A DNA stretch of 64,000 nucleotides from Balneolaceae bacterium (lineage in GTDB: Bacteria > Bacteroidota > Rhodothermia > Balneolales > Balneolaceae), in NCBI GenBank assembly GCA_007134695.1, contig SLKI01000020.1:1-64000 (forward strand). Reading direction: 5' to 3'. A program made the translations under genes and the position numbers. Numbering within the stretch: position 1 is the stretch's first letter; every line of letters begins with the position of its first letter. The notes below the pieces were generated by a model. It had not been told where the DNA came from. It worked only from the letters and a program-made list of their open reading frames with translations, and did not search any database. Shown here one piece after another: positions 2,895 through 53,845 of this stretch.

Positions 2895-3085
2895 TATTCT
2901 CCACCATTAAATTTTCAGTGCATCCAGATAACGTTCCGATTATCGGCTGCTGATTGATACTTCGTAAGTGTAAAACGAACTAATAAAGGAGAGAGTCAAT
3001 CATTTGGCAGAGTTGTAACCGCTATGAAGAGCTGAGAAGAATGAACTTAAATACGTTAATTTTGAGCTTGTATTTTTAAACTACT

Positions 3086-35283: not shown

Positions 35284-37308
35284 CTAGGGATCCCGGGCAA
35301 TTTCTCTGGCTTCCTCGCTTCTGCCTGCTCTGTGAAGTGCATCGACAAGATAGTCCTTGAAAATCGGGTCCGATCCTGCTTGTGAGTGGTATCTGACTAG
35401 CCACCTGTCAATTAACTGATCCAATGTGCCGTTCATACGATTCAACCGGATTAATGCACTGTATATTTCCGGGGATGGATCTACACTATTGGCCCTCTCG
35501 TACCACAAGATCGCTTCTTCGAACTCTTCCCGGCTCTCTTTGATCTCTGCAATGGCTATCAATATCGACCTGTTGTCTGAAGCGACATCTACTCCATTTT
35601 TATAAAAAGCCAGTGCCCTGGATTGATCAAATTCCTGATAAAAATTTCCGGCCATTTCATAAATATCCGGGAATTCAGGATGTTGCTCGTTTAAGCTCCA
35701 TACTAACTGTTCAAAAGATTTTTTCGGCAAAGCTTGTTTCCCAAACTCATAAAGATCCCACAAGGATTTTTGCAGGTCTTCAAGCTGTCTATCCTTCGGA
35801 TAAAATGAATATTCTTGCAGATAGGATGTTTGCTGCATGGCAATCTGAGCCTCTATAGCCATAATTTCTTTACGAGTTTGAATGTTATGAATGGATTTGC
35901 TGAAAGCGTTTAGCCATTCATCCCTGTTTTCAGCTTTTTGCGGATTTCTTTGAAGCAACTGCAGATACGCTTCCGGCCAGTTTGCTCCTGCATCTATCGC
36001 TTGATGATAATAGGTCTCGGAAGCACTCTTATCTCCGAGGTTATTCAAAGCTCTTGCTTTCAAAATCAGGGCTATAGAATCGTCCGGGGTGGTCGTGAGA
36101 TATTCCGAAAAATGTGAAAGTGCCAAGTCCGGCCGATCTTTTTGGGAGGCGATTTTTCCCAGTTTTTTCTCAATTTCCCGATCTGCATGACGATCTTCTA
36201 CCTCGCTTAACTCCCTGTAAGCTTCTTTCTTCTTGCCCTCTTGAAACAACAGAGCAGCTTTTGGATGTACGACATCAAAGATAGATCCCTTCTCAATTTT
36301 CAAAGAGTCATAAACGGCAATCGCGCGGTCGATATTCCCATTCAGCTGGTGGGCTTGTGCCATCTCGAGATGTAACTCTTGTTGTTCAGGAAACTGTTCC
36401 TTCATCTTTTCAAGCAGAGCGATGACACCCTCATAGTTCCTTGTGCGATAGTTCAGGTCGAGCAGAAAGTCGTAAATTCTTTTTTCATCAGGATATCGAT
36501 CCAACAATTCATAAAATAGTTCACTGGCCTCTGGTAATCGGCCGGTTTCGATCAAAAGCTGACCGTAAATCAGTGCATTGTTGAGATCATCCGGGTTTTG
36601 CTGGTAAAGCTCACGGTAGTTCTCCCGCACCTCTTCAACTCTGCCCATCTCAAAAAGAGCCTGGTTTCGAAGTGTCGAGAGCTGTTGATCGGACTGCAGA
36701 CGGGAGGAAAGTTGGCGGTAGGCCTGATTCAGGGAGTCGTAATCTTCTGCCATCAAATAGGCATAAAATAAACTTCTGTACACCTCCACATTTTCGGGCA
36801 GCCACTCCTGAGCCTCTTTAAAATTATAAATGGCTGATTCATAATCGGAAGTATCAAGATAGTCCCTGCCAACGATGAGGTGTAACCGCCCTTTAAGTTG
36901 GTAAAGTTGCTCTTTTGAAATGCGTTCTGATTTCAGCAAGCCGGACTCTGCATCAATAATGGTTGTTTCGAGCAACTCCAATGCTTTATCAGGCTGGCTG
37001 ATTCCGGCTTCTACTTCCAAAACTCTCAAGTCCAAACTTTCCGGAAACTTTTCAACAGCTTTGCTTATCCAGTCAAGTGCAATGTCTCTTTGACCTTTGT
37101 TCAAAAAACTGGTGATCAAAATCTGATAAGCCCCTTCATTTAGGTCATACTGAATTATAAGAGGCTCCAGCAGCCGGATTACTTCATCATATTCTTCGTT
37201 TTCGAAATGCGTTGTAATTCTATCCAGTTGTCGGTTTTCACTCAATTGAGCCAGAGAACCGGCTGTTATACTAAAACAGAGAAGTAATGTTATAATGAAC
37301 TGCTTCAT
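35284..37308 (-). CDS. Exported TPR protein, last gene of the giant-surface-protein operon
   Basis: A 674-residue protein with a Sec signal peptide (to about residue 20, ending GSLAQ) and tetratricopeptide-like helical repeats along most of its length. Examples are SAIYNFKEAQEWLPENVEVY, ALIYGQLLIETGRLPEASEL and AILWYERANSVDPSPEIYSAL. There are no membrane segments, lipobox or enzymatic motifs, so it is probably a soluble periplasmic scaffold. It starts 12 nt after the FN3 gene. TPR proteins often hold assembly machinery for surface structures in this phylum; a role in export or assembly of the giant protein is inference. Confidence 0.85.
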   Translation of the reverse strand: MKQFIITLLLCFSITAGSLAQLSENRQLDRITTHFENEEYDEVIRLLEPLIIQYDLNEGAYQILITSFLNKGQRDIALDWISKAVEKFPESLDLRVLEVEAGISQPDKALELLETTIIDAESGLLKSERISKEQLYQLKGRLHLIVGRDYLDTSDYESAIYNFKEAQEWLPENVEVYRSLFYAYLMAEDYDSLNQAYRQLSSRLQSDQQLSTLRNQALFEMGRVEEVRENYRELYQQNPDDLNNALIYGQLLIETGRLPEASELFYELLDRYPDEKRIYDFLLDLNYRTRNYEGVIALLEKMKEQFPEQQELHLEMAQAHQLNGNIDRAIAVYDSLKIEKGSIFDVVHPKAALLFQEGKKKEAYRELSEVEDRHADREIEKKLGKIASQKDRPDLALSHFSEYLTTTPDDSIALILKARALNNLGDKSASETYYHQAIDAGANWPEAYLQLLQRNPQKAENRDEWLNAFSKSIHNIQTRKEIMAIEAQIAMQQTSYLQEYSFYPKDRQLEDLQKSLWDLYEFGKQALPKKSFEQLVWSLNEQHPEFPDIYEMAGNFYQEFDQSRALAFYKNGVDVASDNRSILIAIAEIKESREEFEEAILWYERANSVDPSPEIYSALIRLNRMNGTLDQLIDRWLVRYHSQAGSDPIFKDYLVDALHRAGRSEEAREIARDP

Positions 37309-37320
37309 CGAACGGCAAGA

Positions 37321-39333
37321 TCAATTACCTGAGGTTGCCTGTCTCGGACTGGATGGCCTGCTTTGATTGCCTGAGTGATCAACGGCGTGTACTCGGTACC
37401 ACAATCCTGCTTCACCATCCTCATCAACCCAGTTTGTATCTGATAACGGAGTTTCATGTAACGGCAGGTATTGACCATTTACCAGCGTTGCTCTTTTAAC
37501 GATGTAACCTTTGAGATCGGCAGCCGGTGATGGTTCCCAGGACAACATAACTCCATCTTCTGTTTCAACGGCTAGTACATTTCTTACTGAAGGCGGGGGA
37601 GAGGAGTCATGCATCGAAATGACACTTTCTCGGGTAGGCCGGCTTTCATTGTCCGAAGAGTCGACTGCGGTAACAAAATAGGTGTATTCTGTCCCGAAAT
37701 TGACGTCAGTATCGGCATGAAAGCGATTGTTTTTTGGCTGGTTAATGATCGTGGTATCACGATCGCCGCTTAATTTGTAAAGATTATAGGAAGTAACATC
37801 TGTTGATGGCGATGCTCCCCAGTTCACATTGATTCGGGTATCCTGATAAATGGTAGTCTCGATGCTGGACGGAGGTTCAGGGGGTGTAATGTTTGGCATT
37901 TGAACTACGGTGAAGAGGGTGTCACTTCTTCGGCCCTGACGATTGGCAGATACAACACCATATTCGTAAAACCTTCCTTCAGTGAATCCCTCCCCGGCAA
38001 CTCCATGATCTCTAATAAACTCTTCCATTAATCTGCCTTCATTAACCTGAGAAAATCCTCCTCTTTGATCTCGATCTTCATACGTTCGCCTGAGCACCAC
38101 ATAGGTATTAAATAAATCGTCTTTTTCTGCTGCACCCCATTGGACCTCGATAAATCCCTCTTCACTATTAACTTCTGCTGTAACATCAGATGGAGGCTCC
38201 GGGTATTGTACCGACAAGATATTTTCCATTGCCGGATTTCCCATTTCACTTTCAACGCCATACTCTGATACAGCAATTACATAGTATTGGAAATTAATGT
38301 CGGTCTCGATTGTAGGGTCTCTGAAAAATGGCTGACGCAGATCAATCAACTCTTCTGTGAGCCGAACGCTTTCTTCCGTATCCATATTCACACGATCAAT
38401 ATGATATCCGGCTGTGACCGGGTCGGTGCTTACAGGCCACGTTAATTCCACAACTCCGTCAACCACCCGTGAGTGCACCTCTAAAACAGCAGCGGGTTGA
38501 GTCATATCAATCAGTTCCACTTCCACCGGATCGGATGCAATTCTGTTTTGACCGGTCGCATCTATGGCTTCTACAATAAATTCTGCGCGCTCAACCTGGT
38601 CGATCGCATCAAACGTATAACTGAACTCCGTTTGATCGTCGAACTTGAGCCTGGACTCTTCCGTAACGTTCATGAAGTACTCTTCTGTCTCCGGGCTCAT
38701 ATAAACATCAAACCGCATCACAATATCATCTATGGCCCGTGCCGCCTCGGGGTATTCCCAATAAACATGTATTTCATCGTCTATTCTTTCTGCTTCTACC
38801 TGTTGCGGTTGAACAATTTCCGATTCTTCAACCACCATCGTACCTTCAAAAATAGTACCCGTGGCCGTACCTCGTTGATCCACCTCTTCAATGCGGTAAG
38901 TGACACGCTGATCAACAATCGGTTCTTCATCAATATAGAGTTTGCCATAAGCTTTGGCTATCGGCGGGTAGCTCAGTGAGAGCACCGTTCGGTTAAAGGC
39001 ATCACCCCGTAAGCGAAGAAATGCCTCCTGGGGAGAAGTAACCTCAAGGCCATCCTCAATAACTGGATAAAGTTCTCCCAAAATTCTGCGGAAATCGTGG
39101 CCGGATGAGACGGCATACACAGGCTCATCATTTAACTTCATTTCTTCTCCTGCATGAATTCGATAGATATTAAAACCGTATCCGATGGGCAGCAGATGGT
39201 CATGATAGACGTAAGCGTCTCCATCCGGAGTGAGTATGGCAGCGATATCTTGTGCATTGGCACTTTGATGTACGAGTAAACTCAATACAATCAATTTCAA
39301 ATAAAAAAGAATAAATTTTACAGACAACTTCAT
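37321..39333 (-). CDS. Exported protein with five fibronectin type III domains
   Basis: A 670-residue protein with a Sec signal peptide ending near NAQD (about residue 28). An uncharacterised N-terminal region (about 30-175) is followed by five FN3-like domains (about 180-665). Each has the B-strand tryptophan (EIHVYWEYP, VVELTWPVS, FIEVQWGAA, RINVNWGAS, VMLSWEPSP) and the late tyrosine (for example YTYFVTAVD and LWYRVHAVD). Linkers are proline-rich. No T9SS C-terminal sorting domain, lipobox or enzymatic domain is visible. It lies 21 nt downstream of the giant gene, which also ends in FN3/Ig-like domains, and 12 nt upstream of the TPR gene. A structural or adhesive partner of the giant protein is the simplest reading. 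Confidence 0.83.
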   Translation of the reverse strand: MKLSVKFILFYLKLIVLSLLVHQSANAQDIAAILTPDGDAYVYHDHLLPIGYGFNIYRIHAGEEMKLNDEPVYAVSSGHDFRRILGELYPVIEDGLEVTSPQEAFLRLRGDAFNRTVLSLSYPPIAKAYGKLYIDEEPIVDQRVTYRIEEVDQRGTATGTIFEGTMVVEESEIVQPQQVEAERIDDEIHVYWEYPEAARAIDDIVMRFDVYMSPETEEYFMNVTEESRLKFDDQTEFSYTFDAIDQVERAEFIVEAIDATGQNRIASDPVEVELIDMTQPAAVLEVHSRVVDGVVELTWPVSTDPVTAGYHIDRVNMDTEESVRLTEELIDLRQPFFRDPTIETDINFQYYVIAVSEYGVESEMGNPAMENILSVQYPEPPSDVTAEVNSEEGFIEVQWGAAEKDDLFNTYVVLRRTYEDRDQRGGFSQVNEGRLMEEFIRDHGVAGEGFTEGRFYEYGVVSANRQGRRSDTLFTVVQMPNITPPEPPSSIETTIYQDTRINVNWGASPSTDVTSYNLYKLSGDRDTTIINQPKNNRFHADTDVNFGTEYTYFVTAVDSSDNESRPTRESVISMHDSSPPPSVRNVLAVETEDGVMLSWEPSPAADLKGYIVKRATLVNGQYLPLHETPLSDTNWVDEDGEAGLWYRVHAVDHSGNQSRPSSPRQATSGN

Positions 39334-39354
39334 AGATGGTTGCTTTCGAGAAGT

Positions 39355-42300
39355 TTAAAATGAAAATGATTGAAAGGTAACCGGATTAAAAACGGGTATA
39401 TATGGAGCAGGTACGCTTTCTGTAGCGTTTGATTCCAAACCGGCTGCATTTTGGACTCTTACCGTTACATTCAATTCGTAAACCGAGACATTCGAAGGAA
39501 CATCGTAGGTGACGGTAAGGCTGAAATTATCGTGCCGTACACTCGATATATTGCCGATATCTTCCCACGAAGGTGTGGCAAGATGGTAGGGGAAATCATC
39601 TGGAAGTACCGTAGCATACACACCTGCCACACCGGACACACCATCGTAAATGTTATCGACGGTGATTTCCAGTTTATTCCCGTTGTTTTTTACATCAAGG
39701 CTCACAACCGGTTCAGCAGGGGGGGTGCTGTCCAAAATGATCGGCCCTGTAGAAACGACATCACTTTCCGTATCCTGGTTATTCAGGGCTTTTACGTTGA
39801 AATAAAGTTCCTGGCCTTCGGGTAAATCTGATTTGGAAATCTCGAGATAAGGAGCTGTTGATGAGGGATTAACCATTACCCCAAAAGCCTGATCTAACTC
39901 ATAGTCTGCTTCAAAGTCTACATCAGTATCATCAGGCCAGCTTCTTATGTCGGACGCGCCGGCATTTGTTCCGACAGAATATTGAAACCCTTTTATACCG
40001 GACTCTCCATCATAGGCTCTCTCTTTTAAGTAAATCCTTATATGATCCGGAGCATTGTATCCGGCGATAACCGGTGCTGTTGGAGGATTCGGATCAAATG
40101 GAAACTGAGAATGGGTATAGACTTCACTGGCCAGACCGGCATGGTTTACAGCCCGGATGTGAACATGCATGTAATCATCAAAATCAAATGTAAGGCCGTC
40201 GTGGCGGCTATCTCCACTTGTAATTTCGATATTGGTTTCTTCCGTAGTAAAGCCGTTAAAACTAAACTGCGTATCGGTGTAACCTTCGTCAGTGGTGATC
40301 AGATACTCGTAATGTGATACTCCCGACAAGTTATCTTCTGACGGCTGCCACTCAACTATACCCAGTCCCGGGGTTTCACCGGTACTAAAGCCAGACGTCT
40401 GTTCCGGGTAGGACAAGTTATAACTGGGAGGCAAAGTAACGAAGGGTTCAGCCTCCATAGGTGACTGTCCAAATGGATTAAAAATTCCGGTGAATATCTG
40501 TAATCCCAAATCTTCGGGCGCCTCTGGAGCGGACGGTGGTGTATCGTCATAAACGACGGGTACGGGCACTTCCTCACGAATGCCCAGGTCCCCGATATTG
40601 AAAGCCTCAACCGATAGATAATAGCCTTCACCCGGTTGCATATTAAAAATACGGGTTATGGCTTCAATCAGGTCGGTCCAGTTTCCGGGTTCATCGGGAT
40701 AGCGTTCGGTACTGCCAATTAAATCCGTCGTTCCGATGACATCCTCTCCTCCCACTGAACTGCCTACAGAATATTCATATCCGCGTATGCTTGAAACAGG
40801 TTCGCTTACCAATGCTCTAACTTGAATATTGGCAGGGTCTGAGGTCCAAAAACGTTCAAGCGGCATGGATACAGTTTGAACCTGTTGAGTGATCGGGTTG
40901 TAATTGTTCCAGGTAATCGTCTCCTGTGTTCGGTTGTATTCGGATTCCAGATCCACCATTAAGTCGGTGGGTGGGGCTGTGATCTCAGGGAGAATATTGT
41001 CGCCGGGTGAAGTGCCCTGGCCTCCTCTTGCCACAGGAATTTGAAAAGTTGCCTGCCTTTGTGCCGTTATCCCGCCGGCACTTCGTGCGCGAAGTACAAG
41101 GTCAACGTTTCTAGTACTGGTATTTGCAGATTCATCACAATCATACCACCTTAAAGAACATTCAGCCTGATCTCCCTGTAAATAGGTGTAATGGACAACG
41201 TGATTTGAATAGTTATCCTGATCTGGTGTCCCGACACTTACAAGCTGATTTGAAAATCCTGGTGGATCGGAATCGTATGCATACTCCTGCATATTAATGC
41301 TGACTTCGTACACGCCAACCGGATGATCAATATCCCATCCGATATTTGCCCATCCATAATAATCTGCATCGAATACACCTCCTCCAATTCCGGTATTCAC
41401 ACTGATATCGGAAATTTCCGGTGGTTGCAGTGCTTGCAATATCTCTTCTCTCCGAATTTCATACTGCTCCAGCACACTCAAATCAGATCCATCTGTATCT
41501 CCGTGTAATGTGTAGAGTTGATGTTGAATATTTGACAACCCCTGAATGGGTCCCGAATCTTCCTGTTGTTGTGCGGCTCTTCGTACCTCCACATAATCAT
41601 CGATAATGCTATACAAACTGCCATACATGTTTGCTTTCAGATTGTAAATATCATCTATCAGTTCAGTATGTGCCTCCATGATATCGATAATGTCTTCACG
41701 ATGTACTTGATGGCTTTCAACAAGTTCATTGTTAATAAATTCAGATTTATGTTCAATATATTTTTCATTTCCCAGGATATGCATACTTATCATAAAGTCA
41801 TACGTGTTTTGATAAATACCACTCACATCCAACTCATAATTTGGAATATCATCCATCAGCTCATCTATGATCTCTTGAACTTCTGGATATGCGTTAAATT
41901 GATATGGAGTTCCTGTTGGAGAAGAACTATCGATTAAGTCTTTAAAAATTCTGAGTCTTTCAGCAATAGGTTCTACAAACTCATAAAATCTATCACTCTG
42001 AATAATTGTGTTGTCTGTAGATAAAAATTGACTTCTATCTAAATAGAGCCGATTATTAATGCTATTATCAACATAACCCTCAAGCGGTCCATAGAAGTTA
42101 AACTCTGTATTTTGCTTCACCACAGCCGCAATATTCATTCTATGCCAATATTTATTAGTTAGTGTCGCGTAATACCGATCAATGGCCTGTAATGTATTTT
42201 GGTAATGTTCGGCAACTGCATTGATAGATGGTTGAATCTCTGTATAGTCTACATCAAATTGCGTTATTCCATCGGTGCCAATCATTGAAACTTGGGGCAT

Positions 42301-45300
42301 ATACTGAGCCGTCATGAGGCTCTCCAGCTGCTGAATATTAAGTTCTATGGAGTCGATCACGGCGTGAACCTGATCTTCCATCTCCTCAATAGCTTCAGAA
42401 AAGTCTGCAGCTTGTTGAGATTGACTTGCAGCCAGATCATCATCTACCTGGAAGACAGGAGTATTTCCCTCTCCGATACTTTGTTGAGTAGGTTGATTGA
42501 TAATATTTGCCGGAGAAGAGGCCATGACATCTGTAACGTCATCTCGTAATTCATCCGCTATGTATTCATATTCTATAGCTCGCACAACAGCTTCCTGAAG
42601 CCGGCCCATGGTTTCCTCACTTAATTGGTCCATCATATCCAGGTGATCATTTAAATCATCCTCTGCGGAACTCCAAGACGTGAACCCGCTTGATTCGAGA
42701 TCTTCATCTGTGCGCGTTCCACCCCATTCTTTATACTCTTCCAGGTACCGAAATACCGCATTTGAGCCACCTGTATCACCATATAATTCCAGAAATAACT
42801 CCTCATTTGCATAGATCAGGTTTTTCCACGTCTGGCGAGTTGCCGGATCGGCCGATCGAAAATGATAACCAGCCATTGCAATATCTTCATCGGTTAATTC
42901 CAGACCCGGGGCAGCTACAGCACCCAATTCCGCAGCCAACCCATCCATTGCATCCTGTATCATCTTTTCAAATTCATCAGCCTGAGCCTGTGCTTGTGCA
43001 ATGGTATTGTCGTCAAAGTCGGGCTCTCCTCTTCCGGCATCAACATCAATTGGATGGGTCATTATTTTGATCCAGGCGCTGCCCGATTTACCAATACCTA
43101 ATACACTTGCTGCATATTCACCATATCCAAACAGCTCATATCTCGAGGAAGACCTTCTTACAAAAGCAACATTGATTACAGCCTCACCTGAAATTATTTT
43201 GGCAATATCAATTTCTCCGCCTGCCACTCCGTACGCACCGAAGGGAAGTTCGGCTCCATCATACGTTAGATTCCATATTGAACCCCTCAAATATCCTTTC
43301 AATGTTAATAAACTCCGGTCGATTCCGGCCTCCATTTCCACTTCCAGTAAAAAGCCATCATTACTTGCCATCACTGTACTCGACCCGCCGCTGATTAATC
43401 CCCTGAACAGTTCTACGTCAATTTCTCCGATCAATCCCCACTCGAGTGACTGATTTCCACCGCTGCCGGTATATCCGGCAAAAAATTGAACTCCAGCATC
43501 GGCCGTAATAACCGGATCGAATTCGACGAGAGCCTGAATTGAAGCTTGAATATGCATCCCCTCATTGTAACTTGCTCCCAGGAAGAAAGCTCCGGCCATT
43601 GTGGGAGAACTGTCCATTCCCAGAATGACACCGTCGGCATCCAGGGCCAGATAGCTGTCGGTTATTTCAAAGAATGTTGTGCCTTCCATAACAGATACAA
43701 CATGCAGATGTGCAAATAGCATAAACGAGAACCGCAAGTCTACATCGCTCTCAAGGTTTAACTGATCAGAGGGGCTGTTTCCCGATGTAATCGTTCTGTC
43801 CAAGCCATCAATTGGATCTCCCCTGAGATTGTCGACAGCCGTATATACCATATCCAGTTGTTCAGTTTCCGGCCGATAAAAGAAGCCACCGCCAAAACCG
43901 GAGACAGCTAAAACACCGGGAATAATCGGTAACTCTTGACTTGTTGTTGCTGCTGCAAATAGCCCGAATGAGAGATCATCACCCATTGTAGAGAATCCAC
44001 CCGCAATAACAGCGGAAACTTCCTGTCCTCCTTTGGATAGTTCCACGGAACCGGCAGCAAAGAGCTGGGAACCGTTAATATTTGACTCATAGAGTAAATT
44101 GGCACTGGCCAGGGCATCATCTCTAAGTTGTAGCGAGAAATTGGTAACTGTGAAGGAGATTTCACCGTCTGAAGTTTCGTAAAATAGAACTTCTTCAATT
44201 TCACCGGTGAATGATCCGCCGCCTTCTCCGCTTTGTCCGCCGAGACTCAATTTTAAGGCAGTCTCATCCGATTCATTTTCGCAGGGGCCAAAACAGAGAT
44301 ATTCTACCAGGTTCAGCTGCCGGGTATCAGCTTCACCGCCCCCATTTTGGATATCGTTTAGATCCTGGCCAAACCCTCCGGGTAGATCTCTGCTGAATCC
44401 CTGAGGGTCAGACTCATGTTCGAATGTACCTAATTCAAGGGACGCGATGCCATTCCAGAATTTCAGAGTTACACCCCCTTCGATATTCCCGATTTCATCA
44501 ATCCCTTCCATATTGATGACCATCCCGCCAAAGTTCCCTTCAACCTCATCTATTCCGGGAATTGCAGTTGAGGATAAGCTGCCGCCGAGGCCAATTTCGA
44601 ATAGGTCCTCACTTGAGGAGAGTACATCCGCATCGATCTCTACCGAGAAAAAGCTGTGATCGAACTCAAAACTACCGTTACCTGTAATGTTATATTTCAC
44701 AGGCGATTGGCCGAGCCTGTTTTTGACAGAGATGCCCGGATTTTGCTCCACATTGCCTGACTCCCCCAAATAAATACGCTCATTGCCCATAACGGAGATA
44801 TTTCCGGCAGCGGCTATGTGAGAATCAGTGATATTGGAGGGATCTACATCAAATAAAATATCTGTGATGGTTACGGTCACCTGTGAGCCGAGCTCAATAT
44901 CAAACTCCTCAATTTCTTCAGGGTTGAAATCTGAATCCTCCGGGATTTCTGAATCGACAAAGATTGAACCGTCTATACCATCGCGGCCAAGAATTACATT
45001 CAGATTCCCCGTTTCATCCACCGGCTCCGGAAGTGTAAAAAAGAATGTACTTGACACGCTGATCCCATCTGCTTCATCCCAGTCAAGCCCAACTGAATCA
45101 AGAACAAGATATTCACCGATAATTTCTGCACCATCACCCGCTACTCCCCCGATCTCGAAATTTCCGCCGGTATCAACAGACAGATCTTCGAACTCCATAT
45201 TTTGGTCCAGAAAGGTAAGATCGCCATGATCTATTGAAGCTCCCAGTAATCGTCCCTGGATAAACAGTTCGGCATTGGTAAAACTCCCTGCAAAGGCCCC

Positions 45301-48300
45301 TTCAAAGAAATCGAATTCCTGAGTTCCTTCGATTCCGGCAGTGGCTGCACCAAGCCCGAATACCAACTGTGGGCTATCCTGCAGATTTTCTGCTCCAATC
45401 AGAAGGTCCTTCACAGAAAAGATGAGGTTTTCACCCAGCATCTCTTCGAAGGAGATATGGCCGCTGATCTCCACGATAAATTGATCATCATCTACAGTAA
45501 TGTCTAGAGGATGTTCCTGATCCAGGTTAAACCGGCCCAGGCCCAGGTCTGCAGATTCATGCCCCCCCGGTATCTCGACATCAAACTGCCAACCTTCACT
45601 GTATCCGGCGGTATAAAATATCGGATAGTATTGCCCGTCATCCGTTGTCAGCAGAGAGGTTTCTGCAATACCTGACAACATAAACTCAGCCGGTGAATTG
45701 ATGGAGAGCTGTGCACCATATAATCCCATAATAAACTCACTGTCTGCCGAATCTCCACTGAGTTGTGCTAAAATATCACGCTGAACGACGGGCTCCAGGC
45801 CTTCCTGGTAAAAATCAGTATAGTTCCCAATATCGATCGTTGCCTCCTCGAAACCGCCGGCGCCAATGGTAGTTTCGGCTGAAGCGGTGATATCACCGAA
45901 TGCACCCGGCAGATCTACGGATATGACAGTTGTTAACAGATTTTCTTCGCCATCAATAGCGATTGAATCGAGCGAAACCGGAACGTCCAGAAAGGGTTCG
46001 AGACTCATGGGAGAAACCAACGTGATTTCACCGCCATTAGGCACATAGCTGTCATCCGTAGTCAGTGTGAAATAGGCATCTACATAGGGCTCACCCTGAA
46101 CCTCATCTTCAAGAGCCGGAAAGTGGATGGAAAGCGGTTCCTCATCCGTAGACAGGGTGTAACCTCCCTGCTGATTTGACTCTACATCGATCACCGGATC
46201 CCCATCCTGATCTTTGATAATGGCATATGCAATATCAGAAGAGGGCAGTCCGAGCTTTTCGGGCAGTTGTGCAATCAGAGCATCAATAAAATTAAACCCA
46301 TCCGAATCATACACAGCCAACAGGTTTTCCTGCTCTTGACTGGAGTAGAATTCTGCCCGGCCCCTGTTGACCGCCGGGCTGCTCATGCTGTGGGTAAATT
46401 GATCCTCAAAAACAACATGTAAAGAAGCCATCTCCTGGCCTGCAATTCTAAGAGATGCTCCGGCTTCTCCTGCAAAGTTCAGGCCATCCGAATCTACAAT
46501 AACGGTGCCATCCGCTATCATATTTACAGCTTCTTCAGCCGGCGGCTGATCTGTATCAGCATCTGTTACGGATGCTGTGAACGGTGAAAGCCCTATCTGA
46601 AGGCCGAATCCGGATGATATTTCAGCAAAGCCCGAATCAATTGAAAAATCCGGCAGAGCAAACAGGAGTTGATTGAATGATACAAATATATCCGATTGAC
46701 CGGCTTCCAGGTGTCCATCCGCATCCAGCAAAAAGCCCTGACTAGAGATTTCAGCTTCATTTACCACAAAATCGATGAAAGATGGACCGATTGCAGGCAT
46801 ACTCATCAGGAATGGCTGGTCAATGGCAATTTGCCCGTCTCTGATCTGTCCGGCAATCAGATCAAGCTCAATACTACCCTGTGCCGTTACATCATTTTCC
46901 GGCCCTTGTAGATGTGCAAATAACGTTCCGTCAAACAGGATGTCCTGCTGGTTATTATCATAGTCTAAATAGAGATTACCTACACCCGCCGATAGAGTTA
47001 CAGGCCCCATGGTTACTGATCCGCATGGAGCAATGTTTTCAAGTGTACCATAAAATCCCCGGCCTTCTACAATATCCAATGAATACTGGATATCGGTAAC
47101 ACAATCAGGGTCGGGATCTTCAAAAAACGGAATATTTTCTATCGACCCGGCAAGTGACAGATCCACGCTCTGTCTGATTTCTTCCTCAACTTCACTGGCG
47201 CCAAGTGATCCCAGTATCTCATCAATTTGAAATTCCGGAGGATTGTAGCCGGGAGGGCCCAATGGAATTTGCAAACCTCCAAGAGGTTCATAGGGGGTCA
47301 TTTCACCTGATAATATTCCTTGCTGAATGGTAACGTTCGAAAAGGTCAGTCCATCGGGAGGAGTTATGTCACCAAATTCAAAATCCGGCAGATATATGGA
47401 AAAATCGAGGAACGGGTTGATATCCGGCACCTCTCCGCTGAACCAGTTGTACTCCATCGACTCCAGGGTTCGTAGTGCCAGAGGCTGAAATTCAAATCCG
47501 GCCAGTTCGAAAGAGGGTAACTGTTTCCCATCAAGTGTACCATCATTAATCTCCTGTATGGGAATCGTAAATCCATTGGTGCCTAACTGCAGGCCGTTCA
47601 TGGGGAGGGTAAACCGGTTTTCACCCGCAATATTAAATTCAAAATCGGCATCGAGATCGATCATGAATTCCCAGCCTTCGTCTCTGTCGTAGTTGAAAAC
47701 CGGAATGGAATTTACACGGTTCAGATTCATGGTAAAACGAGACAGATCAACACGAACAGGTTCGTCGGGTGTTAAACCGCTAAAGTCATTCATCACCAAA
47801 GAACCCGGCTGAATATTGAGTTCAAAAGACGAAAGAGATCTGGGCTGATTTCCGGTAACTCCGAACTTGAGTTCACTGCCGATATCTAAATCAAAACCGA
47901 AGCTTGAATCGTCAAAAAGCGACATCGCCAAGGCACCCTGTATATCATTGACTTCAAGTTGCAGATGTTCACTTTGATCAATCAGCGGAATATTAGCTGC
48001 AAGATCTGAAAGTTGAACTTCTCCACTCAACAGGCCGCCTGACGAAACTTTTACCATGGTGTTTGCATCAGATGAAATCCGTTCACCAAAAAGCATTAAA
48101 TCGCCAAACAATTGCAGATATTTACCATCATCGGACAACTGTTCTGATTGTCCGTAGATGATCTCTTCAAGGCTGAAAGGAAGACCAATTTGAGATTGCA
48201 GATCCGACAGAAATTCGTCACCGATCATAACACTCGCGCTACCGGTATCCACACTGAAATTGCCGGGTGAGGCTGTCAGTACAAAGTCCTGAAATTCTAC

Positions 48301-51300
48301 GCCGGCTACAGCAGGGGGGTTGACCTCATCCAGTACAGGCAGTACCAATTCAATGGGAGTTCCCGGTATCGTTTGCAGTTCTATAAGCCCCGGTTCCGGT
48401 TCTTCAAAATCTACGAGCAGTTCCCCTTCATCATCCCTTAATTTTATAAAAGCTATATTGATGGATGGTGCCGGCAGCTTTTCGGGGATGATCTCTTCGG
48501 CCAGGCCGCTGATTAACGGATGAAACCCGCTATTGTCCAGGTAGGCGATCCGGCTGTTGTTATAATAAAAGTCGGCACGACCGGCACCTACGTTAAATGG
48601 ACGCAACTGAAAGCTGAAGTCCTCTGAGAATTGAATTCCGATTTGGCCAAAATTCAGGTTGTCTACCGCAATTCTGCCTCTGGTTTCTCCCGACGTGAAT
48701 ATGCCGGTATGATCCATACCAATTCCGGCACCCAATTCCATAATTATTCCATTATCAGGGGCGTCCGGCACCGTTTCTTCTTCATCCGATAGTGGAACTG
48801 CAGAAAATGATGGGGAATCCCAACCATCATCAAAAGAAACAGCCATCGCAAAACTCCGATCAAAATGGACCTGGCCGGATCTGATCCGATTCTCTTCAAG
48901 ATCCTTTACAACCTGATCGAATGTGGCGCCAATTGTTTCATCGCCAATCAGTAAATCGTTTCTGCCATCTATGTGTAATCCTTCGAGGTCGAATCTGGCT
49001 TCATTGATCTCAAACGACAAAACAGGATCATCTGCGGGAATATCCCAGATGTATGGTTCATCGATCAGAAATTCCAGCTCACTGAAACGGAGGTCCATCA
49101 CATTGTAGACAAATGACCCGTTTACCTCGTGATTTTGGGATAGATGAAGTGTTGCACTGCTTTCAATTTCAGCTTTCTGCTCTCCATCTTCTCCCCGTAA
49201 ATTCAGTGAAGCTTCGTTAAGAGTTGCATCATAAACGGCTATGGGAATCTGGCATGATGACTCTTCGATTGAAAATTCACCATGGATCATTCCATCAATA
49301 AAAGAGACCTCGGATGAAGCGATCTGGCCTGTATCTGCAGTGTCCGTACAGCTTAACGGTAAGCCTGCCTCGTATCCACCTTCAATAAACAGGTTAGTTA
49401 CAGGAGACGCTATAAAATGACCATCAGCCGCCACCCCAAACTCCGAATGCATCGACCCACCAAGAGCCGTTAAGATAATTTTATGACCGCGGGTCAGGTT
49501 GATGGTGCAATTCGATAACGATGTCAATTCCAGGTCTGCAGACAGCTGGCCGGATGTTACTAACCCGTCCTCAATAGCAAGAACGGACCCTGCCAGGCAA
49601 AACGGCAGCCCTGCAGTTTCTGCTATGGACGCCTCGCCGGAAAATTGAAGGTTCCAGTCGCCTGGATCATCACCATCCCACTCAAACCAGGGAAATTGAA
49701 AGCCTTCCAGATCAAGATGATTCATGGAGAGGTTCAATCCATCATGGTTATACTGAGGAAGGTTTCTGTTCAATGTAAATGAAGGAATATCAATTCCGTC
49801 GTTGGTAAGCCTGAATAGTTCATCAGGTTGATGTGACCAGTTATTGAATACAGGGAAAGTAAAGGATGCCTCAAATGGAAAATCAAAATCCCATTCCCCT
49901 GACTCTGTGTTGTACTGAAATTGATCAATCCCGAAATCAGAGAAAATTAACCTTGCAAAGCCGAGGTTCAATTCAGGCTCAGGTATTGTGCAACTATTCT
50001 GTTCTACGTTATGTACGGTAGCTTCCTCGCTATGCAATGAACTTTGAATACGGAATCCGCACGGTTCTGTATTGACGAAATTAAAGCCAAGATGCCCGTT
50101 TACATTTATATCGTATTCCAAATTTTGGCTCGACCTGTTGAATGCCAGTGTCCCGCTGAGTTGAGAAATGGTGTATTCCAGCAACTCCCTTCCATTTGAA
50201 AGATCATAACTGAGAAGTTCACGACAATTCACCTCGGACAGCCACTCTTCTTGTGCAAGATTTACCCGGCTTATCGAACAGTTTGCAGGTTCACCCAAAA
50301 AATGTAGGTCAGCCGTTGCTACCACATCCTGGAAAGGTAAGCGTACCTGAATTTCGTTCAATAAAAGTGTAAAAAGATCGCTCTCAAACGAGACAAGATC
50401 TTCTTCGGCAGTTAACGATCCTTCAAGTCCACGGTTGGTTAGACCTACCGGGCCTTCAACAGTGATCGCCCCAAATTGAAAATCCTCGTAACTGCCGGAA
50501 AGTCTGGCACCGGTTCCGTGGGTATAGTCAAGCTGTGACAAGCTGACCTGCTCAAGGCCGAGCAGTAGTCGCGGAGGAGCATCTTCCAGGTCGATCTGAA
50601 CTTCTCCACCGGAAACAACCGGATTTTCCAGTCCGGTTTTCTGTATCGCAAGAGACTGAATATTTGCGGGTAATGTGATCGGCTCAAGAAGATAGTTCAT
50701 CTCCAGCCGCGCCTGGACCGGGCCGTTGAGAAGGTAGATCGCGTCAAGCTCTGTAACCTGATCTTCACCTAAGTCACTCAGTCCGGTAACATAAAGGATG
50801 TCGGGGATCAGTTCGATCTCTTCCAGTTCGGCCAGTGCCTCAGGATCTGCTGTATCTTCCTTGTAGGTAAAGGTGAAGATCTCACTCTCACCATTATTTC
50901 GAATTGGGAGTTCATTGTTGATGTCACCTGCCGTAACTCTCCAGGCGTAGTTAGCTCCTTCGTTCAGGGGGAGGTACTCATCAGTGTAAACGAGAGAGGT
51001 GGCATTGACTATCGTGGTTTCGAGATGGGGCCGGTTGCCGTCTATTCCATCTTCCGGGGTTTGGCCTTCAAAAAGTTCAACCATCAGGAAATCATACTCC
51101 ATTGTAACATGTCGCTGACTCATAACGGGTGTCCAGCTGAAAACCGGATGGGTCATGGTTAAATTCGCATCATGCGAAGGGGAAGTAAGCCTGGGGGGCT
51201 GAGGATGAGCTACTGTAAAGTGAGCAACGCCTCCATGAACCTGAACTGTACGTCCGGCTGTCGGATTGGCATCAACTTCAAGCCGATAGTTGCCTTCCGG

Positions 51301-51729
51301 CAAAGCTCCCGACTGTATGATTCTGCTTTGAAGATCTCTCCCCAGATCCGATATGATATCTCGTTGTGACCGTTCAAACTGCAGGCGGTCCGTGAGAGGA
51401 GTGAGATTGTTCATTCCTGGAAAAAGTGTTTCGGGCCGGGAGACCTCTTCGACAAGAAGTTCCCTGTCGCGATAAAGCCGGAATACAAATTCAAAATCCA
51501 CAGGTGAAGAACCGCGAGTGATATAATTTGCGTGTAATTGGTACTGTCCCCGGCGAACATTACGCTCAAAGTCGCTGATGTAGGGAGAGGGGAGAATGGA
51601 CGGAATATTAACAACATCAATTTGAACCGTTTCCTGGGCTTCGGCGGAATGAAACGATGTAAAATTGATCAGACAGATGATTAGAAGTGCTTTAGAAAGG
51701 GTGCAGAATGCCTTTAAGCTAAATCTCAT
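39355..51729 (-). CDS. Giant exported repeat protein, 4124 residues
   Basis: The gene is a single uninterrupted frame. A signal peptide (to about residue 31) is followed by an Ig-like N-terminal region (about 35-300) with LPEGNYRLEVDANPTAGR and HPVFSWTP. This resembles the start of large Bacteroidota surface proteins. Residues from about 520 form a strand-rich repeat. Markers align between copies at exactly 740 residues (W613 with W1353; R1051 with R1791), and a weaker third copy begins around W2047. All 14 mature cysteines are paired: 484/502, 557/580, 711/741, 794/826, 1543/1569, 2479/2483 and 3524/3531. Residues 2905-3433 are mostly helical and acidic. FN3/Ig-like domains fill 3434-4124, and the chain ends VTFQSFSF. 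I saw no enzyme motif, membrane span or T9SS sorting domain. Its function is unknown; adhesin or surface filament is inference. Confidence 0.88.
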   Translation of the reverse strand: MRFSLKAFCTLSKALLIICLINFTSFHSAEAQETVQIDVVNIPSILPSPYISDFERNVRRGQYQLHANYITRGSSPVDFEFVFRLYRDRELLVEEVSRPETLFPGMNNLTPLTDRLQFERSQRDIISDLGRDLQSRIIQSGALPEGNYRLEVDANPTAGRTVQVHGGVAHFTVAHPQPPRLTSPSHDANLTMTHPVFSWTPVMSQRHVTMEYDFLMVELFEGQTPEDGIDGNRPHLETTIVNATSLVYTDEYLPLNEGANYAWRVTAGDINNELPIRNNGESEIFTFTYKEDTADPEALAELEEIELIPDILYVTGLSDLGEDQVTELDAIYLLNGPVQARLEMNYLLEPITLPANIQSLAIQKTGLENPVVSGGEVQIDLEDAPPRLLLGLEQVSLSQLDYTHGTGARLSGSYEDFQFGAITVEGPVGLTNRGLEGSLTAEEDLVSFESDLFTLLLNEIQVRLPFQDVVATADLHFLGEPANCSISRVNLAQEEWLSEVNCRELLSYDLSNGRELLEYTISQLSGTLAFNRSSQNLEYDINVNGHLGFNFVNTEPCGFRIQSSLHSEEATVHNVEQNSCTIPEPELNLGFARLIFSDFGIDQFQYNTESGEWDFDFPFEASFTFPVFNNWSHQPDELFRLTNDGIDIPSFTLNRNLPQYNHDGLNLSMNHLDLEGFQFPWFEWDGDDPGDWNLQFSGEASIAETAGLPFCLAGSVLAIEDGLVTSGQLSADLELTSLSNCTINLTRGHKIILTALGGSMHSEFGVAADGHFIASPVTNLFIEGGYEAGLPLSCTDTADTGQIASSEVSFIDGMIHGEFSIEESSCQIPIAVYDATLNEASLNLRGEDGEQKAEIESSATLHLSQNHEVNGSFVYNVMDLRFSELEFLIDEPYIWDIPADDPVLSFEINEARFDLEGLHIDGRNDLLIGDETIGATFDQVVKDLEENRIRSGQVHFDRSFAMAVSFDDGWDSPSFSAVPLSDEEETVPDAPDNGIIMELGAGIGMDHTGIFTSGETRGRIAVDNLNFGQIGIQFSEDFSFQLRPFNVGAGRADFYYNNSRIAYLDNSGFHPLISGLAEEIIPEKLPAPSINIAFIKLRDDEGELLVDFEEPEPGLIELQTIPGTPIELVLPVLDEVNPPAVAGVEFQDFVLTASPGNFSVDTGSASVMIGDEFLSDLQSQIGLPFSLEEIIYGQSEQLSDDGKYLQLFGDLMLFGERISSDANTMVKVSSGGLLSGEVQLSDLAANIPLIDQSEHLQLEVNDIQGALAMSLFDDSSFGFDLDIGSELKFGVTGNQPRSLSSFELNIQPGSLVMNDFSGLTPDEPVRVDLSRFTMNLNRVNSIPVFNYDRDEGWEFMIDLDADFEFNIAGENRFTLPMNGLQLGTNGFTIPIQEINDGTLDGKQLPSFELAGFEFQPLALRTLESMEYNWFSGEVPDINPFLDFSIYLPDFEFGDITPPDGLTFSNVTIQQGILSGEMTPYEPLGGLQIPLGPPGYNPPEFQIDEILGSLGASEVEEEIRQSVDLSLAGSIENIPFFEDPDPDCVTDIQYSLDIVEGRGFYGTLENIAPCGSVTMGPVTLSAGVGNLYLDYDNNQQDILFDGTLFAHLQGPENDVTAQGSIELDLIAGQIRDGQIAIDQPFLMSMPAIGPSFIDFVVNEAEISSQGFLLDADGHLEAGQSDIFVSFNQLLFALPDFSIDSGFAEISSGFGLQIGLSPFTASVTDADTDQPPAEEAVNMIADGTVIVDSDGLNFAGEAGASLRIAGQEMASLHVVFEDQFTHSMSSPAVNRGRAEFYSSQEQENLLAVYDSDGFNFIDALIAQLPEKLGLPSSDIAYAIIKDQDGDPVIDVESNQQGGYTLSTDEEPLSIHFPALEDEVQGEPYVDAYFTLTTDDSYVPNGGEITLVSPMSLEPFLDVPVSLDSIAIDGEENLLTTVISVDLPGAFGDITASAETTIGAGGFEEATIDIGNYTDFYQEGLEPVVQRDILAQLSGDSADSEFIMGLYGAQLSINSPAEFMLSGIAETSLLTTDDGQYYPIFYTAGYSEGWQFDVEIPGGHESADLGLGRFNLDQEHPLDITVDDDQFIVEISGHISFEEMLGENLIFSVKDLLIGAENLQDSPQLVFGLGAATAGIEGTQEFDFFEGAFAGSFTNAELFIQGRLLGASIDHGDLTFLDQNMEFEDLSVDTGGNFEIGGVAGDGAEIIGEYLVLDSVGLDWDEADGISVSSTFFFTLPEPVDETGNLNVILGRDGIDGSIFVDSEIPEDSDFNPEEIEEFDIELGSQVTVTITDILFDVDPSNITDSHIAAAGNISVMGNERIYLGESGNVEQNPGISVKNRLGQSPVKYNITGNGSFEFDHSFFSVEIDADVLSSSEDLFEIGLGGSLSSTAIPGIDEVEGNFGGMVINMEGIDEIGNIEGGVTLKFWNGIASLELGTFEHESDPQGFSRDLPGGFGQDLNDIQNGGGEADTRQLNLVEYLCFGPCENESDETALKLSLGGQSGEGGGSFTGEIEEVLFYETSDGEISFTVTNFSLQLRDDALASANLLYESNINGSQLFAAGSVELSKGGQEVSAVIAGGFSTMGDDLSFGLFAAATTSQELPIIPGVLAVSGFGGGFFYRPETEQLDMVYTAVDNLRGDPIDGLDRTITSGNSPSDQLNLESDVDLRFSFMLFAHLHVVSVMEGTTFFEITDSYLALDADGVILGMDSSPTMAGAFFLGASYNEGMHIQASIQALVEFDPVITADAGVQFFAGYTGSGGNQSLEWGLIGEIDVELFRGLISGGSSTVMASNDGFLLEVEMEAGIDRSLLTLKGYLRGSIWNLTYDGAELPFGAYGVAGGEIDIAKIISGEAVINVAFVRRSSSRYELFGYGEYAASVLGIGKSGSAWIKIMTHPIDVDAGRGEPDFDDNTIAQAQAQADEFEKMIQDAMDGLAAELGAVAAPGLELTDEDIAMAGYHFRSADPATRQTWKNLIYANEELFLELYGDTGGSNAVFRYLEEYKEWGGTRTDEDLESSGFTSWSSAEDDLNDHLDMMDQLSEETMGRLQEAVVRAIEYEYIADELRDDVTDVMASSPANIINQPTQQSIGEGNTPVFQVDDDLAASQSQQAADFSEAIEEMEDQVHAVIDSIELNIQQLESLMTAQYMPQVSMIGTDGITQFDVDYTEIQPSINAVAEHYQNTLQAIDRYYATLTNKYWHRMNIAAVVKQNTEFNFYGPLEGYVDNSINNRLYLDRSQFLSTDNTIIQSDRFYEFVEPIAERLRIFKDLIDSSSPTGTPYQFNAYPEVQEIIDELMDDIPNYELDVSGIYQNTYDFMISMHILGNEKYIEHKSEFINNELVESHQVHREDIIDIMEAHTELIDDIYNLKANMYGSLYSIIDDYVEVRRAAQQQEDSGPIQGLSNIQHQLYTLHGDTDGSDLSVLEQYEIRREEILQALQPPEISDISVNTGIGGGVFDADYYGWANIGWDIDHPVGVYEVSINMQEYAYDSDPPGFSNQLVSVGTPDQDNYSNHVVHYTYLQGDQAECSLRWYDCDESANTSTRNVDLVLRARSAGGITAQRQATFQIPVARGGQGTSPGDNILPEITAPPTDLMVDLESEYNRTQETITWNNYNPITQQVQTVSMPLERFWTSDPANIQVRALVSEPVSSIRGYEYSVGSSVGGEDVIGTTDLIGSTERYPDEPGNWTDLIEAITRIFNMQPGEGYYLSVEAFNIGDLGIREEVPVPVVYDDTPPSAPEAPEDLGLQIFTGIFNPFGQSPMEAEPFVTLPPSYNLSYPEQTSGFSTGETPGLGIVEWQPSEDNLSGVSHYEYLITTDEGYTDTQFSFNGFTTEETNIEITSGDSRHDGLTFDFDDYMHVHIRAVNHAGLASEVYTHSQFPFDPNPPTAPVIAGYNAPDHIRIYLKERAYDGESGIKGFQYSVGTNAGASDIRSWPDDTDVDFEADYELDQAFGVMVNPSSTAPYLEISKSDLPEGQELYFNVKALNNQDTESDVVSTGPIILDSTPPAEPVVSLDVKNNGNKLEITVDNIYDGVSGVAGVYATVLPDDFPYHLATPSWEDIGNISSVRHDNFSLTVTYDVPSNVSVYELNVTVRVQNAAGLESNATESVPAPYIPVFNPVTFQSFSF

Positions 51730-51754
51730 TGGAACTTGAATTGATTAATACTGT

Positions 51755-53551
51755 TCAGAATCTTTGATTGAATGTAAGTCGGGACTCCAGTTCGGAAAAA
51801 CCGACTCCCTCTCCTGTACGGATTGAATGGTTGTTGGCGCGTACAGAAAGCTGCAAACTACCGGTCGAGGTTACCTGGTAGGAGATTCGCCCATTTCCAT
51901 TCATCTGCCACGATACGCTTTGAAATTCCTCTCCGCCATTCATGGCTGGCCGTGTGACTTCATTTCTGGATACACCGCCGCTAACATTGACGGTTAAATC
52001 TCCGTTAAAAAAGAAGTATCCGACGCCGGTATTGATTCCGGCATTAAGGATTTCCGATCCGCCCGTATCGCCAATCATTCCGTTTAAACTGGTATTCAGG
52101 GTTAATCCTCCGTGAAAAGTGATGCTGTATCCGGCCATTCCATTTAAAGTATAGCCATCCGTTCTTGGGCCTGCTCCTCCGTTTCCAAAATCCGATTCGA
52201 ACGTCTGGTAGAAACTGGAGAGTGTCAGGTTGTGGTTTGTACTGTTTCGAGAAAAATTGAGGGAGGGCTGTACCCTGAAATTTTGGGTTGTAAAAAGGCT
52301 GGTTGCAATATCTGGATCGGGAGAGCTGGGCCCGCTTTCGGTTCTGTTCAACGAATATCCTCCGGAAAGCGATATTCCGCGCCCCACATCGGCCGAAAAG
52401 TCGAGAGTATAATCGATCCCGGACTGTGTCTGTGCACGATCACCAAACAGGTTATCTTCATGTAAGCCGATGCTGTTGTTAAGCTGCAATCGCCGGTTGA
52501 ACAGGGCAATTCCGAGATCTGCCGAGTAACGTTGCTGGTCGTCACGAACCGTTCTCAACCCCAGACTTTCATAACCAGGTTGTATACGTTCATAATTGAG
52601 TTGCAGGTCAACAGGATCCAGGTCCAATCGCGTGAAAGCCGATCCGGCCAGGCCCAGCCGTGTACTGCTGCGTACCTCCATAATATTTGTCAAAAAAGAG
52701 GGGACACCTGCTTCACCGGCATCGATGACGTCACTTCGCAAATCCCGGGTCAAAGCCGATATAGAGGCTTCCCCGCCGATCTGCAACAGATTATCAAATA
52801 ATATGAACTGAAATTCAGGAGATACCTGAAGGTTTTCGGCAGGAGGTGATGGGCGCCGACTGCCAAAAAAGTTATCATCCTGAGGGAGTGTGATGGAATC
52901 CTGATCGTCTTTGGCGTAAAAGCCGGATAAAAGAAAATAATTGCCACTTCGATTTCCATAGCCAAATCGGGCACCGTAGAGTAATCGTTCGTAACTGATC
53001 CTGCTCGGTGCGATCTCTTCGGTGAAATCAACAGCGCGCCTGGAGCGCCCCGCTGCTACTTCCAGTATCAACGATCCGGGAGTTAATTCGATATGGGCAC
53101 CGCGAATTCTTGTCCCCCTCAGTCCGAAGTTGGACCAGGTGGGTGAGACGTCTCCTGCAGATAACCGTACCCAGTTCCAGCTTCCGCTAAAACCGAGTTG
53201 ATTGACAGATTGACGAAAGTCGGAATCGTCGGTGTTATATCGAAGGTTGATACTGTAATCGAAACCCATAATAGAAAAGCTGGCATTGGCCGTAGTAACA
53301 TTACCAAGTGGCGCTCTCCTGTTTTCATCCCTGGTCGTTGTGTAACCGTGAGTTTCGTTTGTAACACTACCGGATAAATTGAACAGTTCTATATCCGTAT
53401 CCCCGATCGTGCCTTCTTGTGCCTGACTATCGGCAGGTTTTAAAAATTCAACTCCTGAAAAGCATATAAAAATGCAGATGAGTTGAATAATGAAGGGTGG
53501 GGGGCGAAAATTTTTAAAAATCGCTGAGTGGTTAGTGTTCTTTCCTTGCAT
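51755..53551 (-). CDS. Outer-membrane beta-barrel candidate, first gene of the operon
   Basis: A 598-residue protein with a long N-terminus before a hydrophobic signal segment (about 19-34) and probable cleavage near DSQAQ. The remainder alternates short amphipathic strands with turns rich in Gly, Asn and Asp, for example FDYSINLRYNTDDSDF and ISLSGGYSLNRTES. The C-terminus LESRLTFNQRF ends in the phenylalanine expected of an outer-membrane beta signal. There are no cysteines in the predicted barrel, no plug domain and no TonB box. It is not a PorP/SprF protein by length. It starts the operon and lies 25 nt upstream of the giant gene, so it may anchor or export that protein, as SprF does for SprB in Flavobacterium. 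That comparison is an analogy only. Confidence 0.82.
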   Translation of the reverse strand: MQGKNTNHSAIFKNFRPPPFIIQLICIFICFSGVEFLKPADSQAQEGTIGDTDIELFNLSGSVTNETHGYTTTRDENRRAPLGNVTTANASFSIMGFDYSINLRYNTDDSDFRQSVNQLGFSGSWNWVRLSAGDVSPTWSNFGLRGTRIRGAHIELTPGSLILEVAAGRSRRAVDFTEEIAPSRISYERLLYGARFGYGNRSGNYFLLSGFYAKDDQDSITLPQDDNFFGSRRPSPPAENLQVSPEFQFILFDNLLQIGGEASISALTRDLRSDVIDAGEAGVPSFLTNIMEVRSSTRLGLAGSAFTRLDLDPVDLQLNYERIQPGYESLGLRTVRDDQQRYSADLGIALFNRRLQLNNSIGLHEDNLFGDRAQTQSGIDYTLDFSADVGRGISLSGGYSLNRTESGPSSPDPDIATSLFTTQNFRVQPSLNFSRNSTNHNLTLSSFYQTFESDFGNGGAGPRTDGYTLNGMAGYSITFHGGLTLNTSLNGMIGDTGGSEILNAGINTGVGYFFFNGDLTVNVSGGVSRNEVTRPAMNGGEEFQSVSWQMNGNGRISYQVTSTGSLQLSVRANNHSIRTGEGVGFSELESRLTFNQRF

Positions 53552-53845
53552 TAAAATTAAGCCAACATCCCTTTTACTATTTTAAACTAATAAAAAAGGT
53601 TTTACACTAATTCACAAATTTTAGGACAAATCAATTCTTCAGCCTCAGAATTTAAGGGGCAGGCAAGGATAAAAATACACTAATAATGCACAATAAAATA
53701 TATAATATTAAAAACATTTTAAACAGCTTGAAAGCTCCTCAGCTCCTCAGCTCCTCAGCTCCTCAGCTCCTCAGGTGCTTAGGTGCTCAGGCCATAAAGC
53801 CATCAGGCCATCAGGACATCATTGAAACAACTGCCCCCGCACTAC
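53552..53845. other. Upstream region of the giant operon
   Basis: 294 nt between the operon start and the serine hydrolase gene, which is on the same strand. The part nearest the operon (about 53552-53725) is very A+T rich and should hold the operon promoter, but no exact TTTG/TAnnTTTG pair was found. The part nearest the hydrolase stop is the 8-mer array. Confidence 0.6.
53733..53820. repeat. Array of eleven in-phase degenerate 8-mers
   Basis: Five perfect copies of AGCTCCTC (53733-53772) are followed without a break in phase by AGGTGCTT, AGGTGCTC, AGGCCATA, AAGCCATC, AGGCCATC and AGGACATC (to 53820). Nearly all units begin AG and end TC, so the period of 8 holds over 88 nt while the core changes. 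The array lies 25 nt after the stop-proximal end of the serine hydrolase gene and outside any coding frame. It is not a CRISPR, because the units are contiguous without spacers. Confidence 0.85.

Follow-up and report, generated by a model that had tools for sequence, protein, structure and literature searches.

A conserved Balneolaceae operon encodes a giant exported protein with a TANFOR-like N terminus and a candidate outer-membrane barrel partner

We analyzed a stretch of 64,000 nucleotides (nt; here called the window) from contig SLKI01000020.1 of a Balneolaceae bacterium (assembly GCA_007134695.1, a 2.7-Mb draft in 129 contigs). Four minus-strand genes at positions 35284-53551 encode, in this order, a predicted outer-membrane beta-barrel protein (the barrel), a 4124-residue protein (the giant), a protein of tandem FN3 domains, and a TPR protein. 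The open reading frame coordinates agree with a preliminary description of the locus, which had placed all four genes on one strand with gaps of 25, 21, and 12 nt. The export signals reported there for all four proteins were also evident, as the N termini resemble Sec signal peptides by inspection (ending in ...AQAQ, EAQ, NAQ, and LAQ). No terminator-like sites above shuffle level were found within the operon. Our findings show that these genes belong to a real, phylum-wide system, part of which is known under another name, TANFOR.

In a panel of 59 related genomes, with barrel presence called at E<1e-50, the barrel was present in all 14 giant-bearing relatives and in 0 of the 45 others (P = 7.5e-14). 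Homologs of the FN3 protein and the TPR protein occurred in 13 and 11 of the 14 giant-bearing relatives, respectively, and likewise in 0 of the 45 others. Every locus examined in relatives had its genes on a single strand in barrel-giant-FN3 order, mostly with short gaps, with the TPR gene lying either after the FN3 gene or upstream of the barrel gene. The distance matrices of the four proteins correlated with one another (Mantel r 0.45-0.85, with at most 20 of 2000 permutations reaching the observed value). The four genes are co-inherited, and the operon is a real conserved unit. The comparison of co-occurrence and gene order that the preliminary description had proposed found linkage, order, and strand kept in relatives rather than four unlinked genes. 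Several genomes contained multiple paralogous copies of the operon. In three loci (L026, L027, and L122), operon parts occurred in tandem, such as giant-FN3-TPR followed by a new barrel or giant gene, which suggests tandem operon duplication.

The giant is conserved over its full length among 15 aligned homologs (25-46% identity). Homologs were found in Balneolales, Rhodothermia, and Bacteroidia and in metagenome-assembled genomes (MAGs) labeled Calditrichota, Chlorobiota, and Latescibacterota, although the taxonomic labels of MAGs may be wrong. The protein could be traced over ~4,000 residues in MAGs labeled Schleiferiaceae, Calditrichota, and Latescibacterota, and in the Chlorobiota-labeled MAG the match spanned the stretch covered there; the FN3, TPR, and barrel genes adjoined the giant gene in several of these distantly labeled MAGs. 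Among named relatives, the nearest were Balneolales, comprising Gracilimonas amylolytica and a majority of MAGs with isolate names that point to sediment or lake sources; Roseithermus sacchariphilus was more distant. Two MAG contigs labeled Gammaproteobacteria (L119) and Campbellbacteria (L142) carried Balneolales-like giants at 45% and 32% identity, respectively, and are probably mis-binned.

The beta-barrel identity proposed for the first gene product was supported by an AlphaFold2 model built from 15 sequences, which contained 26 strands connected alternately by short turns and long loops (predicted local distance difference test [pLDDT] score of 79.9 and predicted template modeling [pTM] score of 0.65). 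The best fold match in the PDB was MtrB (6r2q_B; E 2.2e-11, template modeling [TM] score of 0.51, 10% identity), to which no sequence relationship was found, and the FimD usher was the next nearest solved fold; both are wide barrels that accommodate proteins. The window barrel matched no Pfam or NCBIfam family, a few barrel homologs matched generic outer-membrane protein models, and none of 20 members of the barrel family matched the PorP_SprF models. We detected no POTRA or ShlB match in the barrel, and its strands follow the signal peptide from residue 57 onward. Strong barrel matches were present in 88 of 396 sampled genomes of the phylum.

The element most consistently found with this barrel across the phylum was the first ~290 residues of the giant, a TANFOR-like domain followed by an Ig/FN3-like domain that we term the dock. 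Of 57 barrel loci surveyed at the level of the phylum, 44 contained a dock, either fused or as its own gene (in 34 of them, a separate gene no more than 200 nt away), and the giant core was found in 5. In shorter versions of the locus, the barrel and FN3 genes were kept and the giant was replaced by proteins of 1,350-2,700 amino acids (aa) whose similarity to it is confined to the first ~290 residues; some barrel loci encoded dock-only proteins of 289-332 aa. Passengers across the phylum ranged from 1,350 to 4,150 aa and included one with CarboxypepD_reg and one in which the dock precedes RCC1 repeats (L183:11385-14267, beside the barrel gene; Pfam E 3e-58). Because the dock is kept across the phylum while passengers vary, we consider the dock to be the element coupled to the barrel and the remainder to be passenger. 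In eight loci, a signal peptide, dock, and barrel were fused in that order in one chain of 860-1,020 aa, an arrangement resembling a plug. The giant-barrel partnership put forward earlier was upheld as a conserved linkage and narrowed to these N-terminal residues, and the export and surface display proposed with it are points that we still only infer.

Some barrel loci had more complex contents. A single barrel gene at L188:106-11566 was accompanied by three dock proteins of 563, 690, and 289 aa, and the end of the 690-aa protein resembled an intramolecular chaperone tail, which Pfam did not confirm. At L049-L051, proteins of 1,400-1,700 aa without a dock adjoined barrel and dock-only genes; the one at L049:4733-9835 had a glycine-rich 'GGGAF' beta core similar to that of the giant and seemingly a twin-arginine-like signal.

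Comparison of hidden Markov models (HMM-HMM) matched the full dock, represented at the order level, to TANFOR-like proteins (probability 99.9, E 1e-31). The TANFOR part alone gave a probability of 89 and E 2e-6, with a score of 46.6, and none of 20 column-shuffled controls exceeded 19.9. Judged by these profiles, the N terminus of the giant is distantly homologous to that of TANFOR proteins. The giant in its own genome did not match the TANFOR model TIGR02542 (curated cutoff of 67 bits), and the docks of some shorter relatives gave weak matches of at most 51.7 bits, below this cutoff. The barrel was present in every one of the 12 genomes with a TANFOR-like match (P = 8e-9, or 2e-7 when only SprA-positive genomes are counted), and a TANFOR-like gene directly adjoined the barrel gene in several genomes. 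TANFOR proteins have been described as Bacteroidetes polymorphic toxins for which export by the type IX secretion system (T9SS) was proposed; their neighborhoods contain FN3 proteins and T9SS substrates, and they carry nuclease toxins accompanied by immunity genes (Jana, Salomon, Bosis, PMC7073777). The giant shares with them the N-terminal module, Sec signal, FN3-rich neighborhood, and T9SS-bearing genome but differs in having a conserved 3,800-aa body and no recognized toxin or immunity gene, and the sections of that paper used here do not mention a dedicated barrel partner. The system can no longer be called undescribed, as in the preliminary description, with respect to this N terminus; new are the phylum-wide tie of the dock to an FN3 protein and a barrel outside Pfam and NCBIfam families, and the conserved non-toxin giant.

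The FN3 protein matched by profile the tandem FN3 domains of titin and fibronectin, consistent with its original assignment, and its gene was found in 38 of the 57 phylum-level barrel loci. The TPR gene was found in 3 of these loci. The earlier inclusion of the TPR protein thus holds for loci with the giant but not for the phylum-wide core, and the gene is accessory to giant-bearing loci. The TPR protein matched PorE at 19.9 bits (cutoff of 600), and no OmpA domain was among its listed matches.

The giant contains one ancient tandem duplication of ~740 residues, detected both by HMM self-comparison (offset 726-747, best E 6e-58) and as an internal protein match, and a repeat in which residues 3537-3738 resemble residues 3849-4010 (E 5e-14; Table 1). 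Lacking DNA repeats, it was rejected as a tandem-repeat adhesin. After the duplication, a beta-rich region extends to ~2890, and residues 1918-2990 were modeled by AlphaFold2 as almost all strand (pLDDT 78.9). Strand amphipathicity in the meander was 0.62, versus 0.42+-0.07 in shuffled sequences and 0.81 in the true barrel. We do not claim the core as a second outer-membrane barrel: its amphipathicity is weaker than that of the true barrel, and Foldseek returned LptD, SlpA, and apoB only at TM scores of ~0.2 or less. Sequence searches found no solved relatives of the giant, and the C termini of its homologs showed no conservation, including the C-terminal Phe, which we rejected as a beta-signal. 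No toxin or immunity family, including those in Pfam, was recognized in the giant or the next genes. Most of the 16 cysteines of the giant lie in disulfide-like pairs, and six near-neighbor pairs are conserved in 11-15 of 15 homologs (484/502, 557/580, 711/741, 794/826, 1543/1569, and 2479/2483), which fits an oxidizing, extracytoplasmic location and indicates that the protein is secreted. Its size, acidity, and Ig-like array suggest an adhesive or structural surface protein.

Table 1. Genes of the operon and regions of the giant, in window coordinates
Feature	Position	Strand	Evidence
Outer-membrane beta-barrel partner, 598 aa, signal peptide, C-terminal Phe	51755..53551	-	AlphaFold2 model, fold matches
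Giant passenger protein, 4124 aa, ~451 kDa, isoelectric point ~4	39355..51729	-	Full-length homolog alignment
Exported tandem FN3 protein, 670 aa, conserved third gene	37321..39333	-	Profile match; presence in phylum-level barrel loci (38/57)
Exported TPR protein, 674 aa, accessory of giant-bearing version	35284..37308	-	Pfam TPR_14/TPR_19 E ~1e-28
Giant: TANFOR-like domain, residues 32-178, N-terminal half of dock	51196..51636	-	HMM-HMM
Giant: Ig/FN3-like domain, residues 179-292, second half of dock	50854..51195	-	HMM-HMM E 1.2e-25
Giant: beta-rich unit, residues ~435-1160, first copy of ~740-residue tandem duplication	48250..50427	-	HMM self-comparison
Giant: second copy of duplicated unit, residues ~1161-1970	45820..48249	-	HMM self-comparison
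Giant: conserved meander, ~21 amphipathic strands around GFGGGFFY, residues 2507-2890	43060..44211	-	AlphaFold2, strand amphipathicity
Giant: mostly helical stretch, residues ~2909-3420	41470..43005	-	AlphaFold2 helices 2909-2984; remainder judged from sequence
Giant: Ig/FN3-like domains, residues ~3430-4124, without recognized toxin or conserved C terminus	39358..41442	-	Internal repeat

As the preliminary description had stated, the four proteins all lack a T9SS sorting domain (no match to PF18962, TIGR04183, or TIGR04131 at E<=1) and sprA lies ~5 kb from the operon (23035-30300, plus strand). The genome uses T9SS tails elsewhere, with 12 over-threshold Por_Secre_tail proteins.

We favor, with moderate confidence, a model in which the dedicated barrel binds the N-terminal dock and holds, and probably displays, the giant passenger at the outer membrane. 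All four proteins would reach the periplasm by Sec, and the 26-stranded barrel would insert in the outer membrane. When the strand number of an outer-membrane barrel is even, a domain at its N terminus lies in the lumen or faces the periplasm. Because natural dock-barrel fusions exist and the strand number is even, the barrel is predicted to bind the dock, with its TANFOR-like and Ig domains, on the periplasmic side or within the lumen as a plug. This would fix the ~3,800-residue passenger at the cell surface and probably display it there as a long, beta-rich protein, stabilized by disulfides, with a structural or adhesive role. The FN3 protein would assist the dock and barrel as a conserved accessory, and in giant-bearing loci the TPR protein would add a periplasmic scaffold. 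Perhaps the barrel also exports the passenger in a two-partner-like manner, or SprA may export it and the barrel anchor it, as SprF would.

In two-partner secretion (FhaC/FHA and CdiB/CdiA), the gene for a TpsB barrel lies upstream of that for a very large TpsA exoprotein recognized by its N-terminal domain, passengers vary, and natural fusions exist. The window operon resembles these systems in its barrel gene upstream of the giant, variable passengers, and fusions, and the dock, given its linkage and fusions to the barrel, is a candidate for the N-terminal recognition domain, but the operon lacks POTRA domains, an Omp85/ShlB barrel, and a TPS domain. A wider proposal is that we have an undescribed Bacteroidota-wide two-partner system, convergent with the type Vb secretion system, in which a 26-stranded barrel and an FN3 cofactor export and anchor TANFOR-docked proteins (toxins, RCC1 proteins, and 4,000-residue giants) without the T9SS; we regard this as tentative and rather unlikely. 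The adjacent genes for a giant surface protein and a private barrel also recall SprF/SprB and PorP/PG1035, T9SS type B cargo with anchor barrels (PMC9143113), and the TPR protein beside the barrel recalls PorE, although its PorE match is weak. Unlike in SprF/SprB, the docking end is N-terminal rather than a C-terminal type B C-terminal domain (CTD), and the barrel has 26 rather than 14 strands. The barrel is like MtrB in having 26 strands and enough width for a protein, and its fusions are like Cyc2 in joining an N-terminal domain to a barrel (PMC8406198), but the window system has neither cytochrome partners nor a sequence relationship to Mtr or Cyc2 proteins.

Several observations weigh against the model of a dock-binding barrel that displays the giant. 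SprA, which could be the real exporter, accompanied every strong barrel match (88 of 88 genomes; P = 3e-12); this co-occurrence favors some T9SS involvement, although SprA is common in the phylum anyway (304 of 396 genomes) and the association is confounded by phylogeny. Thirteen of the 57 barrel loci had no dock in the stretch covered; at least one of these (L166) ended early, and others may be true exceptions. The pTM score of 0.46 for giant residues 1918-2990 leaves the global fold uncertain, which bears on the shape and function of the passenger. Furthermore, a dock that remains in the periplasm might keep the passenger there as well.

An alternative with a substantial, although less than even, chance of being correct is that the giant is exported by SprA on a non-CTD signal, with the barrel only receiving and anchoring it at the surface, as SprF does for SprB. 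In addition to the SprA association above, SprA was present in all 7 named genomes checked, including MAGs labeled Latescibacterota and Calditrichota, TANFOR neighborhoods are enriched in T9SS substrates (PMC7073777), and SprF-SprB provides a precedent (PMC9143113). This explanation must accommodate the lack of a type A or B CTD and of a conserved C terminus, a barrel of 26 strands rather than the 14 of FadL-type PorP/SprF with no PorP_SprF match, dock-barrel fusions that place the dock on the periplasmic side, and the phylogenetic confounding. Because it also includes dock-barrel binding, its probability and that of the model favored here overlap. The fusion topology that places the dock inside is also consistent with a periplasmic mega-scaffold, in which the giant, tethered under the barrel by its dock, never leaves the periplasm and connects the outer membrane with further layers of the envelope. 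The TPR and FN3 partners also lack an export tail, and no surface signal was found. We consider this improbable, since TANFOR relatives are likely exported given their secreted-type nuclease toxin domains with immunity genes (PMC7073777), and C-terminal Ig-like arrays and variable passengers appear typical of surface proteins. The homologous N terminus could instead mark the giant as a polymorphic toxin of the published TANFOR kind, with the toxin at its C terminus and an immunity gene beside it. This is very unlikely, as the body and C-terminal Ig-like region are conserved in distant relatives, no toxin or immunity family was recognized, and the next genes are the FN3 and TPR genes conserved in relatives. 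Finally, MtrB as the best structural match raises the idea of an extracellular electron conduit with the barrel as a sheath for an electron carrier. We give this almost no credence, since the partners match no cytochrome family, the cysteines of the giant are mostly in disulfide-like pairs, and the MtrB likeness lies in barrel size only (TM 0.51 at 10% identity).

T9SS export of TANFOR proteins has been only hypothesized (PMC7073777), and a dedicated barrel, linked and sometimes fused to a TANFOR-type module, is a concrete candidate partner for crossing the outer membrane. The cargo of the module extends well beyond toxins and includes conserved exported proteins that are among the largest of their kind in the superphylum, and the system suggests how these enigmatic giant surface proteins and toxins are retained at the outer membrane or cross it.

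A defense-system identity was rejected, with no PADLOC match. The operon leader contains 5.2 perfect copies of the octamer AGCTCCTC (window 53733-53774, ~180 nt ahead of the start of the barrel gene). Phase variation of the operon through this 8-bp repeat was rejected because it occurs in this genome only, with none upstream of 40 other barrel genes; slippage at the repeat could alter operon expression. In some relatives, the operon is adjoined by genes for proteins of 1,573-1,721 aa with Ig-like or cadherin-like repeats and an apparent T9SS-type tail (L035:14285-19450 and L037:410-5131).

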